From a bacterium (GTDB taxonomy: Bacteria; BMS3Abin14): a DNA stretch of 41,048 bases. The notes beneath the pieces are model-generated. The model had not been told where the DNA came from, ran no database searches, and worked only from the letters and a program-made list of their open reading frames with translations. Positions within the stretch are counted from its first letter, which is position 1, and each line of letters begins with the position of its first letter. The position numbers and the translations under genes are program-made. This document shows positions 2,650-41,048 of the stretch, piece after piece. The stretch spans positions 1 to 41,048 of the forward strand of contig JARGFV010000009.1 of the NCBI GenBank assembly GCA_029210545.1, in the 5' to 3' direction.

Positions 2650-3268
2650 ACTCAATACCCTCCTGTTTATCGTTAACACCCCGGGCTCCGGCATGGCCGG
2701 GTGTCACAACATCGTGGACCCTGATATCGTGACTCTCAGCCGGCAGATGGGTGATGACCTGGAAATTGTAGGCCAGCCCGAGGAAAGTGGCGGTGGAAGA
2801 CGCACGGGCCAGGAGGCGGTCAAAATAGCCGCCGCCCATGCCCAGGCGGTTGCCCCGCAGATCAAAGGCAAGTCCGGGGAGAAGAAAAATGTCGATCTCG
2901 TCGACAGGGACGATGTTCCCCTCGACACGGGAAGGCTGAGGGACGACCCTCGATTCGAGATCGAGGTCGTTGAGACCGGCGATGGCCGCTGTTCGGAGAC
3001 CGAAGCCCTGTTTCCAGCCCTCCCAGTCCGGAACAGCTACTGTTTTACCCTTCTCCAGCAGGCGATCCATGAGCATGTCGGTGGGGATTTCCTTGCAGGT
3101 ATGGGCGTAGACGCACACCGTACCCGCCGCGGCCGTCTCGGGGCGGTCCAGGACACCGCCTGTCACAGCGATCCCCGCCGAACGGACCTGCTCCGGCGAA
3201 AGGCTGTGTCTCAGGGCACGCATCCTCTCCCGGATACGCTGTTTGTCATGGTTGTCGAGATGATACAA
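2639..3268 (-). CDS. fthC: 5-formyltetrahydrofolate cyclo-ligase
   Basis: This enzyme converts 5-formyl-THF to 5,10-methenyl-THF using ATP. About 209 residues, with the family ATP/phosphate motif GMGGGYFDR at about 143-151, the N-terminal basic helix ([12 protein letters not shown]) and the central VPDWEGW segment. I chose the TTG start at 3268 because GGTGAGG lies 5-6 nt upstream and it gives the usual length; the frame continues further upstream without similarity. Its place just downstream of 6S RNA and zapA is the conserved ygfA/fthC arrangement of Proteobacteria. A leader of about 300 nt separates it from the 6S RNA. Confidence 0.93.
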
Positions 3269-3570
3269 GAAAACCTCACCAGTGAATAATGTTGCGTTTC
3301 GACCGCAGTTGCGGCCGCACCGGTGAGGCCCACGGGAGGACCAGTTCGTAACTTGAAGGAGATCCTGTTGTCTCGAGAACACCCCTGCATCGCGAAAGCC
3401 CGGGAGGTGAGCGGCTCGTATGTGTCAGACTGTGTTCTTTAGTATATGGCAGGGCCTTTCATACGGCCCATGTTACCACTTACAGAATCCCTCAGCTGCT
3501 GAACTTCAAGTTATATATCAAACTGGACTCATGCAGGCCTCTTACGACCGGTCCAGATTACTTCCAGAAA
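3269..3570 (-). other. Leader between 6S RNA and fthC
   Basis: No convincing gene is present. On the minus strand it holds a T-rich stretch (TTTTCT) just after the 6S 3' end, a small GGGCC/GGCCC hairpin near 3450-3470 and a CCGCA/TGCGG hairpin near 3305. I looked for ZTP or THF riboswitch consensus elements and did not find them. Confidence 0.4.
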
Positions 3571-5270: not shown

Positions 5271-6938
5271 TCACATCCTCTCGGGCGCCGCCACGCCCAG
5301 CAGGGCCAGGGCAGTTGCGACAGCGGTCCTCACACCCAGGACCAGGCTCAGCCGGGCCGAGGTGACGGCGGCGTCATCAGTAAGGACCTTGTGGTGATAA
5401 TAGTAGTTGTGCAGGGTCGTCGCGATATCACGAAGGTAGTTGGTGATCCTGTGAGGTTCCATGGACAACGCCGCTCCTTCCACGACGTCGGGTAGTGCGG
5501 CCATGTGGCGGATGAGCTCCTTTTCCTCCGGCAGGTCCAGAAGGCCGAACTCGACGGTTTCAGGATCGGGCATCGGGATCCCCTGCTCGGCGGCGTTCCT
5601 CAGGATACTGCAGATCCTGGCATGGGCATACTGCACATAGTAGACCGGGTTGTCGTTGCTCCTCTCCTTGGCGAGATCCAGATCGAACTCCAGCTGGCTG
5701 TCGGCCTTGCGGGTCAGGAAGATGAACCGGGCAGCATCCCTGCCAACCTCGTCGCGGACTTCCCTCAACGTCACGAACTGACCGCCCCTCGTGCTCATGG
5801 CAACCGGCTGGCCCTTTCTGACCAAGCTGACAAGCTGGACCAGCACGATCTGCAGATCTTCCATGTCCCGGCCAAGAGCGGCCACCGCCGCTTTCATCCT
5901 GGCGACATACCCGTGGTGATCGGCGCCCCAGACGTTGACCACCCGGTCGAAACCACGCTCATACTTGTCCCTGTGGTAAGCCACGTCGGAAGCGAAATAG
6001 GTCAGGGAGCCATCGCTCTTGACCAGGACCCGGTCCTTGTCGTCATCCCTGTCGGTGGAGCGGAACCACAGGGCCCCGTCCTCCCTGTAAAGTCCCCCCC
6101 TTTTTTCCATGTCCTCGAGGGTCTGCTGCACGAGGCCGCGGTCATAAAGGTCCTTTTCCGAGAACCAGACGTCGAACACGACCCCGAACTGTTCCAGGTC
6201 ATCCCGGATATCGTCCAGGATCCAGGACGCGGCCTTGACCGCGATCCCTTCCACCGCCCGGGCCGTTTCCATCTCCAGGTAACGGTCCCCTTCCTCCTCC
6301 CTCAGCTTAGCGGCGATGTCCCGCACGTACTCTCCCTTGTAACCCTCTTCCGGAAAGGGGGCATCCACACCGCAAAGCTCCAGGTAGCGGGCGTGGACCG
6401 AGACTCCGAGGGTGCGGATCTGGTTACCGCCGTCGTTGATGTAGTATTCCCTCTCGACGTCGTAACCGGCGCACTGAAGGATGTTGGCCAGCGCGTCGCC
6501 CAGGGCCGCACCCCTTCCGTGACCGACGTGGAGAGGGCCTGTGGGGTTGGCGCTCACAAACTCCACCTGGACCTTCTGTCCCTTGCCGATATCCGAACGG
6601 GCGAATCGGGCTCCGTCGGTGAGAACCCCTTTCAGGACGTAGGACCAGTACCCGGGTGTCATCGTCAGGTTGATAAAGCCCGGACCCGCTACCGACACCT
6701 CGGCGATAAAACCCGCATCGTCGGCCTGTGAAACCCTCATGGCGATCTTCCCTGCCAGTTGCCGGGGGTTCTCTCCCTGCCTGGAAGCTAGGACCATGGC
6801 CACGTTTGTGGCGTAATCGCCGAACTTCCGGTCCCTCGTCATCTCGATGATCGGTATGGGTATTTTGGCCTGGATCTCTCCCTCACCGGCGGCCATCTCA
6901 AGTGCGTCCCTGACGATACGGCTCAGTGTTCCCTTCAA
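5271..6938 (-). CDS. argS: Arginyl-tRNA synthetase
   Basis: This class I synthetase charges tRNA-Arg. The 555-residue protein has the N-terminal Add-1 tRNA-binding region, the HIGH box as HVGH at 137-140 within NPTGPLHVGHGRG, the KMSK-equivalent MSTR at 381-384, typical of ArgRS, and a C-terminal DALR anticodon domain ending in ERM. The start is TTG overlapping the stop of the upstream gene, with GGAGG 7 nt away, so the two are probably coupled. Length and motifs are standard. Confidence 0.97.
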   Translation of the reverse strand: MKGTLSRIVRDALEMAAGEGEIQAKIPIPIIEMTRDRKFGDYATNVAMVLASRQGENPRQLAGKIAMRVSQADDAGFIAEVSVAGPGFINLTMTPGYWSYVLKGVLTDGARFARSDIGKGQKVQVEFVSANPTGPLHVGHGRGAALGDALANILQCAGYDVEREYYINDGGNQIRTLGVSVHARYLELCGVDAPFPEEGYKGEYVRDIAAKLREEEGDRYLEMETARAVEGIAVKAASWILDDIRDDLEQFGVVFDVWFSEKDLYDRGLVQQTLEDMEKRGGLYREDGALWFRSTDRDDDKDRVLVKSDGSLTYFASDVAYHRDKYERGFDRVVNVWGADHHGYVARMKAAVAALGRDMEDLQIVLVQLVSLVRKGQPVAMSTRGGQFVTLREVRDEVGRDAARFIFLTRKADSQLEFDLDLAKERSNDNPVYYVQYAHARICSILRNAAEQGIPMPDPETVEFGLLDLPEEKELIRHMAALPDVVEGAALSMEPHRITNYLRDIATTLHNYYYHHKVLTDDAAVTSARLSLVLGVRTAVATALALLGVAAPERM

Positions 6939-17805: not shown

Positions 17806-17850
17806 CAGGGACAAAAAAAAGAGCGGCCCCGATCGGCCGCCCTTTCCACC
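17806..17850. repeat. Left arm of a ~43-bp inverted repeat flanking msrA
   Basis: This 45-nt block is the reverse complement of 18751-18793, apart from two extra As in an A tract. Weaker similarity extends outward about 40 nt on both sides (GTGTCCCCTG ... TTAAA). The two arms enclose the msrA remnant and each contains a terminator hairpin. Confidence 0.8.
17813..17840 (-). terminator. Terminator downstream of msrA
   Basis: On the minus strand GCGGCC-GATCGG-GGCCGC is followed by TCTTTTTTTT. This is a classic Rho-independent terminator 65 nt after the end of the msrA remnant. Confidence 0.8.
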
Positions 17851-17904: not shown

Positions 17905-18650
17905 TTATCTTCCAGCTCTCTTCACCACGAACGCCTTCAACGCGCTGGCCGTTTCGGCCGAAAGCCCCAGCCCGGGAATCTCACGCTCCAGCTGCTCAAG
18001 GGACCCGTTGCCGCCGATGTAGCCGTTGACCCGGAGTAAGAAAGGATCTCGGTGGATACCGGCCTGCGTGAACGGCTGCCTGCCGTCGCGAGAGCCTCTT
18101 TAGCCAGCCTCGCCTGCTCATCATCGTGGGTAAAGATGGCCGAGGCGTACTGGCGGATGGGGGACGGCCAGGTGGGGTCGTGGGAGCCGAAAAACACCTC
18201 CAGGAGGCGTTCATAGCTCACCATTCCCGGATCATAATCGATCTGGATCGTCTCCATGTGGTCCCCGATGCGCCGGTACGTCGGGGAGGGCTGCTTACCG
18301 CCGGCATAACCGACACGGGTTTTCAGGACACCTTCCAGACTCCCGAACCGGGAGTCAGGGCCCCAGAATCACCCCATGGCGAAGGTGGCAGTTGCCACCT
18401 TTGATGGAACTTCGCTGTCCAAGGGCGGAAGTTCCCGGAGCCCGGAGCCGGTTTTCATGTCTCCCTCGTTCAGGAGCCCGGAGTACGGCGCCAGGTCGCA
18501 TGCCGTACTATCGGAGCCCGAAGAACTCAGGGCGCGGGCATCGTTTCCGGCCCTTGCCGCCGCCTGCAGGCGGACCGGCATAAAGGCCATGGAGGAAAGA
18601 AAAAGAACGGTGGCCACGAGGGCCGGAATGGAAAGGGTTCCCGGGTTCAT
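17905..18650 (-). pseudogene. msrA: Exported selenocysteine-type MsrA, broken by an internal deletion
   Basis: Starts at the ATG at 18650 (AGGAGG 7 nt upstream) with a signal peptide (MNPGTLSIPALVATVLFLSS... to AAARA). The frame reaches ATFAMG, an in-frame TGA at 18369-18371, then continues as FWGPDSRFGSLEGV, TRVGYAGGK, PTYRRIGDHMETIQIDYDP and GSHDPTWPSPIRQYASAIF. This is peptide methionine-S-sulfoxide reductase with TGA exactly at the catalytic Cys of GCFW. After RPVSTEILSYSG (about 18030) the sequence jumps to another frame, VNGYIGGNGSLEQLERE..., ending at TAA 17905. The AEDYHQKY segment is missing, so an out-of-frame deletion of roughly 30 codons inactivated it. Periplasmic role inferred from the signal. 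Confidence 0.8.
18338..18356 (-). promoter_or_regulatory. Bacterial SECIS-like hairpin in msrA
   Basis: GACTCCC-GGTTC-GGGAGTC: a perfect 7-bp stem and 5-nt loop beginning with GG, starting 12 nt after the in-frame TGA, so the loop lies 19 nt downstream. This fits the published bacterial SECIS pattern (G in the first two loop positions, 16-37 nt from UGA), which directs SelB-mediated selenocysteine insertion. Confidence 0.7.
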
Positions 18651-18750
18651 GAAAAGCCTCCTGCGAAAGAGTTTGAGAGTCATTTCCAAAATGTAAGTAT
18701 TGTTGTTTAAAAGGCAAGGGAGGAAAGGGCAGAGAGGAGAAATAGTGGAA

Positions 18751-18793
18751 GGTGGAAAGGGCGGCCGATCGGGGCCGCTCTTTTTTGTCCCTG
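18751..18793. repeat. Right arm of the inverted repeat flanking msrA
   Basis: Reverse complement of 17806-17850 with two fewer As. It lies about 100 nt upstream of the msrA start codon, so the pair encloses the whole pseudogene at a spacing of about 900 bp. Confidence 0.8.
18761..18786 (+). terminator. Plus-strand terminator hairpin upstream of msrA
   Basis: GCGGCC-GATCGG-GGCCGC-TCTTTTTT on the plus strand is the mirror copy of the msrA terminator. There is no gene on this strand for it to serve. Confidence 0.65.
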
Positions 18794-24538: not shown

Positions 24539-26070
24539 CACTCACCTTCCTTCAGTTCAAGCGATTTCCTGTAAAGGTCCTCGTAACGGCCGGCTGAGCG
24601 TTTCCAGGAATGGTCTTCGGCCATGATCCTGGTCACGAGGCCGGGCATCCTGCCTGACCGAAACAGCTCCGCGGCCCTCGAAACGGCTTCCATGAGATCC
24701 TCCCCGGCGGCTCGCCGGAAAAGGATCCCGTTTCCCCTTTTATCCTTATCCACATCCCTCACAGTGTCCCCAAGCCCACCCGTGGCCCTGACGACAGGCA
24801 GGGAACCGTACCTCATGGCGATCATCTGCCCGAGGCCGCAAGGCTCGAACCGGGACGGCATGAGGAAAAAGTCCGAGCCCGCGTAGATCCGCCTGGCCAG
24901 TCTCTCGTTGAAACCGATGCTGACCGACACCCGGCCCGGATACGGCTGCGCCGCGGCCATGAGGGACTTTTCCAGGATCGGCTCCCCGCTCCCCAGGACA
25001 ACGACCTGGCTGCCGTCCTCAACCATCTTCGGGACGATCCCGGCCAGCAGATCGGCCCCCTTCTGGTCCGTCAGGCGTCCCACGAAGGCAAACAGGGGCG
25101 CGCCCTCATCGGGGTTGAGACCGAGCTGTTTTCTCAAAACGTCCCTGTTGACCCGACGGCCGGAACTGTCGTCCACCGAGAAGGCAGCCTCTATGCAGCT
25201 GTCGGCGGAAGGGTCCCACTCTTCGTAATCGATACCGTTGAGCACGCCATGCACCCTGTCGGCCCGCCTGGCGAGGACACCCTCCAGGCCGCAGCCGTAC
25301 TCGGCTGTCGTGATCTCCGCCGCGTAGGCAGGGGAAACCGTGGTGATGAGGTCCGACACCTCGATGCCGGCCTTGAGAAAGTTGAGATCCCCCCTGTGTT
25401 CCATGATACCGCGGATGAAAAGGTCCTGCGGAAGATTCAGGGATGGGAGGACCTCGGCCCCGAAAACCCCCTGGTAGGCCATGTTGTGTATGGTCAGGAT
25501 CGACACCGTGCGCGCCCACCGCCCGGCATCCGCTCCCGGCCCGGCGTAAAGGGGGGCCAGGGCGCCGTGCCAGTCGTGTACGTGCAGGATGTCCGGAAAA
25601 AAATTCAAGGCCCCGGCTGCCTCGACCGCTCCCCTGCAGAGAAAGGAAAACCGTTCGGCGCTGTCGGGGTACTCGCCTCCTGCCGGGCCGTAAACCCCTT
25701 CCCGGTCGAAATAACCGGGCTCGTCGAGGAACCAGTACAACGTCCCCATCAGATCCGATCTAAACAGACGTGCGTGCCGCGGCTTCCCGGCATGGGTCAT
25801 ATCCATGGTTACACCGGTGTCCATGAGTTCGTGGCCGCGCCGGCGCACTTCACGGTAACAGGGGAGGACCACCCGGACGTCCATGCCCAGCTCGGCCAGG
25901 CGGGGCGGCAAGGTCCCGGCCACGTCCCCCAGCCCGCCGACCTTGGCGAAAGGGGCCGCCTCGGCGGTGACCATGAGCACCTTCAGCCGGGGCTCAGACA
26001 CAGTCTTCGCCCTGGTCCTGGACCTTGCCGCTGTTGGCGCCTTCTTCGGTTCTGTCTTCGTCCGGATCAA
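24538..26070 (-). CDS. glgA: Glycogen synthase (GT5)
   Basis: Extends alpha-1,4-glucan chains from a nucleotide-glucose donor, usually ADP-glucose in bacteria. The 510-residue protein has the GT5 signature AAPFAKVGGLGDVAG with KVGGL at 43-47, HVHDWHGAL, HNMAYQGVF, FVGRLTDQKG and SRFEPCGLGQM. The N-terminus carries about 27 extra Lys/Thr/Arg-rich residues before the fold begins. TTG start with GGAG upstream. It follows galT but is separated from it by the five-hairpin element, which starts only 22 nt upstream of the start codon. It overlaps the DUF4912 gene. Confidence 0.95.
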   Translation of the reverse strand: MIRTKTEPKKAPTAARSRTRAKTVSEPRLKVLMVTAEAAPFAKVGGLGDVAGTLPPRLAELGMDVRVVLPCYREVRRRGHELMDTGVTMDMTHAGKPRHARLFRSDLMGTLYWFLDEPGYFDREGVYGPAGGEYPDSAERFSFLCRGAVEAAGALNFFPDILHVHDWHGALAPLYAGPGADAGRWARTVSILTIHNMAYQGVFGAEVLPSLNLPQDLFIRGIMEHRGDLNFLKAGIEVSDLITTVSPAYAAEITTAEYGCGLEGVLARRADRVHGVLNGIDYEEWDPSADSCIEAAFSVDDSSGRRVNRDVLRKQLGLNPDEGAPLFAFVGRLTDQKGADLLAGIVPKMVEDGSQVVVLGSGEPILEKSLMAAAQPYPGRVSVSIGFNERLARRIYAGSDFFLMPSRFEPCGLGQMIAMRYGSLPVVRATGGLGDTVRDVDKDKRGNGILFRRAAGEDLMEAVSRAAELFRSGRMPGLVTRIMAEDHSWKRSAGRYEDLYRKSLELKEGE

Positions 26071-26091
26071 AATTTAATCTCCGCGCTGTTT

Positions 26092-26250
26092 TTGATAGGG
26101 TCGCAAAAAGTCCAATCCGGGACTTTTCGCTCCACGGAAAGGGAAAAGCGTCGTTTTCCCTTTCCTCACAAATCAATGACTTACAGTGCAAGTCATTGAT
26201 TCGGGCGCCCCGCGCGGGGCGCGTTGATGGACTTTTTGCGAGTCCATCAA
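26092..26250. repeat. Five-hairpin element, complete copy (159 bp)
   Basis: Bounded by imperfect 23-bp terminal inverted repeats: the outer TTGAT matches, then three mismatches, then TCGCAAAAAGTCCA is perfect against the other end. Inside are five hairpins in a row: AAAAGTCC/GGACTTTT; a 12-bp GGAAAGGGAAAA/TTTTCCCTTTCC; CAATGACTT/AAGTCATTG; an 18-nt GC palindrome; and TGATGGACT/AGTCCATCA, which uses the right terminus. No frame for a transposase and no clear target duplication. It begins 3 nt past the galT stop and ends close to glgA. Confidence 0.9.
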
Positions 26251-40906: not shown

Positions 40907-40966
40907 TTTCCCTCCCGACATCGTCCCGACCCGTTCAGCGGTCGATACGATGCTGATTTGCTGACC

Positions 40967-41048
40967 TTGACAGGGTCGCAAAAAGTCCAATCCGGGACTT
41001 TTTGCTCCACGGAAAGGGAAAAGCGTCGTTTTCCCTTTCCTCACAAAT
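40967..41048. repeat. Five-hairpin element, copy 3 (left part only)
   Basis: The first 82 nt match 26092-26173 with two differences, including the CGCAAAAAGTCCA terminus, the AAAAAGTCC/GGACTTTTT hairpin and the 12-bp GGAAAGGGAAAA hairpin. One difference lengthens the first stem by a base pair. It lies 60 nt upstream of secD and is cut by the window edge. Confidence 0.88.

Follow-up and report, generated by a model that had tools for sequence, protein, structure and literature searches.

The window, by which we mean the whole analysed stretch of 41,048 nucleotides, carries on its minus strand a genuine but broken gene for a selenium-using methionine sulfoxide repair enzyme of the MsrA type that is predicted to be exported (Table 1). 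Read from the ATG at 18650, the frame opens with a hydrophobic N-terminus; a linker follows, then ATFAMG, TGA and FWGPDSRFGS..., and the translation remains MsrA-like to about 18036. With the TGA translated as selenocysteine (Sec, U), the product reads ...KVATATFAMGUFWGPDSRFGSLEGVLKTRVGYAGG...PVSTEILSYSG, after which the frame is lost; 93 residues, including the hydrophobic segment, precede Sec. The C-terminal remnant, VNGYIGGNGSLEQLEREIPGLGLSAETASALKAFVVKRAGR followed by the stop (VNGYIGGNGSLEQLERE...KRAGR), lies in another frame between 18030 and the stop at 17907-17905. The match to the MsrA profile PF01625 is unbroken across the TGA (residues 87-205, E 8e-32) and scores 111 bits against a gathering cut-off of 23.7, while covering only profile positions 1-130 of 153. 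A profile search of the whole genome returned this MsrA as the single copy, with one internal TGA. A preliminary description of this DNA had placed the frame, the catalytic TGA, the hydrophobic N-terminus, a hairpin and the frame break exactly where we find them, and had expected automatic callers to see two small proteins; the open frames are indeed 193 and 106 aa long. With its Sec codon and its frame break, the gene is overlooked by standard callers, and the locus is now confirmed.

Table 1. Coordinates of the features at the MsrA locus, numbered within the window.
Feature	Position	Strand	Remarks
Broken Sec-MsrA gene	17905..18650	-	start ATG 18650-18648; stop TAA of the remnant 17907-17905
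Shine-Dalgarno (SD) AGGAGG of the long (exported) form	18657..18662	-	anti-SD duplex energy -10.3 kcal/mol
Hydrophobic N-terminal segment MNPGTLSIPALVATVLFLSSMAFMPVRLQAAAR	18552..18650	-	probable signal peptide or anchor, class uncertain
Internal ATG, a possible second start; SD moderate (-6.4 kcal/mol)	18456..18458	-	weaker than in most of the family
Remaining MsrA (PF01625) domain	18036..18392	-	profile positions 1-130 of 153
TGA read as selenocysteine	18369..18371	-	position of the catalytic Cys in GCFWG
Putative bacterial SECIS hairpin GACTCCC-GGTTC-GGGAGTC	18338..18356	-	loop 18349-18345
Out-of-frame deletion junction	18029..18036	-	lacks AEDYHQKYY and the start of the helical domain; about 124 nt shorter than G008
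Out-of-frame C-terminal remnant VNGYIGGNGSLEQLERE...AGR, then stop	17905..18030	-	helical domain, cf. PF20939
36-bp perfect inverted repeat, one arm	17815..17850		flanks the gene; terminator-like; nowhere else in the genome
36-bp inverted repeat, other arm	18751..18786		encloses the MsrA gene

The catalytic TGA is conserved in intact homologues

A PF01625 search of 60 other genomes yielded divergent matches of 132-139 bits, each with exactly one internal TGA, in G001, G003, G006, G008, G011, G027 and G046, the last two being unrelated and the first five members of the family to which the window's genome belongs. In these genomes the frame is unbroken: it starts with a hydrophobic N-terminus, includes AEDYHQKY and ends in the helical C-terminus. 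In addition, 85,000 species genomes were scanned, one genome per species, and 80 of the closest MsrA genes were kept; the catalytic codon is TGA at 71 of these 80 loci and TGC or TGT at 9. TGA at the catalytic position is common to 77 distinct Sec-MsrA genes, namely the window gene (L009), L051-L057 and L065-L143 minus the Cys forms. Because the intact same-family orthologues and the 77 Sec-MsrA genes all keep it, the TGA at 18371-18369 is, on this comparative evidence, a Sec codon and not a nonsense mutation. Homologues that expose the TGA as one more decay mutation, the outcome that the preliminary description had named as fatal to its reading, were not seen; the Sec-MsrA homologues that we found have the TGA in place and the rest of the gene intact. 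Its remark that Sec-type MsrA is rare fares less well, since 71 of the 80 closest loci kept are Sec forms, and within the MsrA subfamily of the window gene Sec is the rule. The same-family genes also keep a linker Cys, found within STACDLAP in the window, which could, as a guess, act as a resolving Cys.

Two Cys-containing members deserve mention in their own right. L108 from Dehalococcoidia (match 5341-5976) has a catalytic TGC yet a perfect 7-bp SECIS-like hairpin, and because the hairpin persists in a Cys gene, this MsrA has probably exchanged Sec for Cys recently, leaving the SECIS as a relic. L080 (match 1199-1843) is a Cys-containing member of the window gene's subfamily in a Thermoplasmata archaeon bin, with msrB directly after it.

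A hairpin downstream of the TGA has the features of a bacterial SECIS

All seven pairs of the stem are formed in the window hairpin, which begins 12 nt after the TGA and has its loop 19 nt after it. The 7-bp stem, the loop starting with GG and the 19-nt distance had all been noticed beforehand; the element is present at 18356-18338 and conserved in the 77 genes. Hairpin folding energy is unremarkable for the window alone (z -1.1), and the folding energy of the whole region, compared with synonymous shuffles over the 77 genes, gives a weak signal (mean z -0.89). Since these energies were not or only weakly significant, pair-by-pair and codon conservation served as the test. Across the 77 Sec genes the inner stem CCC...GGG is almost invariant despite the freedom of the codons to vary: the hairpin's Gly is encoded by GGG in 75/77 genes, compared with GGG counts of 13/73 and 12/76 for two Gly residues nearby, and the Ser and Ala codons of the hairpin are always TCC and GCC, respectively. 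G occupies the second position of the loop in 76/77. Covariation was found for pairs 17-31 and 18-30 (C-G, T-A, A-T; T-A, G-C), which are formed in 68/77 and 66/77 genes compared with maxima of 57 and 60 in shuffles that ignore relatedness. Pairs 15-33 and 16-32 do not covary among the 77 genes, so that support is limited to the inner five pairs. The nine Cys members have mostly lost the hairpin features, L108 being the exception, and an Rfam search gave no above-threshold match at the MsrA gene. Judged by these patterns, conservation of the hairpin across the 77 Sec-MsrA genes is far above chance and is that expected of a bacterial SECIS.

The genome retains most of the Sec decoding machinery

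SelB (363 bits) and SelA (599 bits) both score above their cut-offs and are encoded side by side, and a tRNA-Sec with anticodon UCA was detected at 74 bits. An FdnG-type formate dehydrogenase gene with an in-frame TGA (L063, 1049-4150) adjoins selA and selB, and its UGA stands at the usual place (EHQARIUHSATVAALAESFGRGAMTNHW). Of the four components that the preliminary description proposed to look for, SelA, SelB and tRNA-Sec are thus present, while searches of the assembly (97.5% complete, 241 pieces) with TIGR00476 and with the SelD of a relative found no SelD. A SelD-like match on C38 was rejected, as judged by eye from sequence and neighbours, because it sits in a ThiL-like gene.

The missing SelD could mean that this lineage is losing selenocysteine use altogether, with MsrA as a further casualty, the more so as six relatives (G001, G003, G004, G007, G009, G011) do have SelD, each with its own TGA. 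Set against this, SelA, SelB, tRNA-Sec and the UGA-containing formate dehydrogenase all look intact, the assembly is incomplete and relatives of low completeness likewise lack SelD; we consider such a decay improbable and take the absence of SelD, as an assumption, to be an assembly gap. The locus appears to capture a selenoprotein gene already lost from a lineage in which most of Sec decoding is otherwise kept.

Taking the TGA for a normal stop codon or a decay mutation, with two unrelated small genes on its two sides, agrees with the 193- and 106-aa frames that callers would find, but is practically dismissed by the intact relatives with the same TGA, the conserved SECIS, the Sec machinery and the continuous PF01625 match over the TGA.

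An out-of-frame deletion disrupts the C-terminal part of the gene

Relative to G008, the window gene has a gap of 124 nt, which is not a multiple of 3 and whose ends cannot be fixed exactly. The active site is incomplete, its HQKYY strip, kept in the relatives, being removed, and the helical domain at the C-terminus is out of frame, whereas the relative L051 has it in frame with a match to PF20939; no further lesion was seen in the window gene, its frames being clean on both sides of the deletion. In CoMsrA, the selenoprotein MsrA of Clostridium (Alkaliphilus) oremlandii, active-site residues His137 and Tyr140 lie within the strip that is deleted in the window gene, and the enzyme loses nearly all activity once its helical domain is deleted (PMC4333827). 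Having lost the active-site strip and the frame of its helical domain, the enzyme from the window gene would almost certainly be dead. The preliminary description had reported an out-of-frame deletion that removes AEDYHQKY, and about 124 nt are indeed missing at about 18030 in comparison with G008; its further suggestion that the enzyme was lost recently is borne out as regards the deletion, whereas the recency rests on one assembly.

MsrA has also been affected elsewhere in the family. G009 carries a broken exported Cys-type MsrA (L059, about 2900-3300), in which ATFAGG is followed by frame breaks and a EEYHRDYYRKNPIRYKYY remnant, and the PF01625 search found no MsrA in G004 and G007. Because of this broken copy and these two absences, loss of MsrA appears to recur in the window's family.

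The deletion might instead be an assembly artefact or a variant of a minority strain, in an organism that has an intact exported Sec-MsrA. The division of the genome into 241 contigs, the clean frame on either side with no other lesion and the retention of the gene in relatives all speak for this; however, there is no long collapsible repeat at the deletion borders, the contig continues for 41 kb, and the broken MsrA of G009, although of another type, indicates that such loss occurs in the family. We therefore rate an artefact as unlikely, though the most serious of the alternatives, and consider the deletion to be probably present in living cells.

The gene lies between inverted repeats in a changed orientation

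MsrA has the same genomic neighbours in G008 and G006, a ManC/phosphomannomutase-like gene on one side and glgP on the other (names assigned by eye), and this shared position supports orthology. It is oriented along glgP in both of these genomes and opposite to it in the window. Long inverted repeats also surround MsrA in G006, and G008 is without good repeats. On the simplest reading, the gene was inverted by recombination between the 36-bp arms. These repeats, perfect and unique in the genome, together with the orientation unlike that in G006 and G008 and the long repeats of G006, would also suit a switch that flips the MsrA gene, the broken copy being one state of a variable locus. As the start region of the gene lies inside the repeats, however, flipping alone would leave the gene on; moreover, no recombinase was noticed adjoining the gene and G008 lacks good repeats, which makes a switch very improbable. 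A dispersed repeat (IGSQKVQSGTFRSTEREKRRFPFPHKS in translation) occurs at several sites of the genome, including about 26000-26190 and 40950-41048 of the window and L060 69-200.

MsrB is the commonest neighbour of the Sec-MsrA family genes, with an export signal of its own in several cases. The window's genome has one MsrB, located elsewhere and starting with a Tat-like RRDFL, and it seems that envelope methionine-R-sulfoxide repair remains and that the S-specific arm has been lost.

Export-type N-termini are common among Sec-MsrA genes and may coexist with a second start

The N-terminus of the window gene has a mean hydropathy of 2.3 and is preceded by an SD of -10.3 kcal/mol. In the window's clade no K/R stands ahead of the hydrophobic core, and the window gene has no lipobox; the missing positive charge leaves the export class uncertain and makes both the type and the direction of export less secure here than in other clades. 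Under a strict rule, an in-frame hydrophobic extension with start and SD is found in 49 of the 77 genes, compared with 0 and 1 genes when the two alternative frames are read. K/R precedes the core in 51/65 family members and a lipobox-like motif is found in 23/65. An exported Sec-MsrA had been called unusual; the 49 of 77 suggest that export is common across many bacterial phyla, and since Sec is the rule and export-type N-termini are common in the subfamily, the window gene is not unusual in kind. An envelope-targeted Sec-MsrA would thus be common and no oddity. The literature searched, with partial coverage that is no proof of novelty, does not discuss exported Sec-MsrA.

The automatic choice of starts prefers an internal ATG and hides the N-terminal extension in most genes, which was a clue to a two-start pattern. 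An internal ATG 20-45 codons before Sec (mode 33) with an SD energy <= -7 occurs in 47/77 genes, against a background of 2.6% among 5,828 equivalent stretches taken from neighbouring frames, and 26 of the 77 have both strong starts, the upstream export-type one and the internal ATG. Synonymous shuffles back the signal partly, with p<0.05 reached by 21% of genes, owing to the high Glu and Lys content of the linker. We regard it as an evenly balanced proposition that Sec-MsrA genes across many phyla commonly yield two products of the same frame, the longer one an envelope protein, in many cases a lipoprotein, and the shorter one, begun at the internal ATG, a cytoplasmic protein. If this is true, one Sec codon serves two compartments, and the window gene is a broken member of the two-start set. 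The internal ATG with its SD would serve as a simple marker, open to testing, that an envelope form is paired with a cytoplasmic one. We know of no report of a two-start Sec-MsrA, and it is unmentioned in the literature searched, the coverage of which was partial.

Discussion

Taken together, the locus is very probably an inactivated selenoprotein MsrA of the Clostridium oremlandii type, whose ancestor was extracytoplasmic and which has undergone deletion and inversion. The ancestral product would have been an extracytoplasmic peptide-methionine-(S)-sulfoxide reductase, either with a signal peptide or anchored. Translation would have started at 18650, and the hydrophobic N-terminus would have targeted the product to the envelope; SelB and tRNA-Sec would have decoded the UGA at 18371 as selenocysteine owing to the hairpin, and the selenolate would then have reduced methionine sulfoxide. 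In the assembly, a single out-of-frame deletion of about 124 nt removes the HQKYY strip and disconnects the C-terminal helical domain, and the entire gene, whose orientation is changed, would have been inverted between the 36-bp inverted repeats.

Comparison with known systems

Among known structures, CoMsrA (PDB 4LWJ-4LWM, 4U66, 7C13; PMC4333827, PMC4479559) matches the family best (E 2e-51). It shares with the family the catalytic Sec, the GUFWGPD motif, a core without resolving Cys and the C-terminal helical domain (PF20939 in the relative L051). Its catalytic residue is at position 16 as published, whereas the window gene encodes 93 residues before Sec and is broken. Bacterial Sec-MsrA has been known since 2006, and deltaproteobacterial examples such as that of Syntrophobacter fumaroxidans have been listed (PMC1794560); the literature searched is silent on where these enzymes are located and on an N-terminal extension. 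Exported Cys-type MsrA of the same organism family (L013, L014, L016, L018, L019) has the export-type N-terminus and the MsrA domain in common with the window gene, but uses Cys (TGC/TGT) in a GGCFWCMEPPFD-type motif and is absent from the window's genome. MsrPQ is a different system, which takes its electrons from the respiratory chain and is unrelated in sequence to MsrA. What this periplasmic methionine sulfoxide reductase shares with the enzyme proposed here is the repair of methionine in the envelope (PMC6316033).
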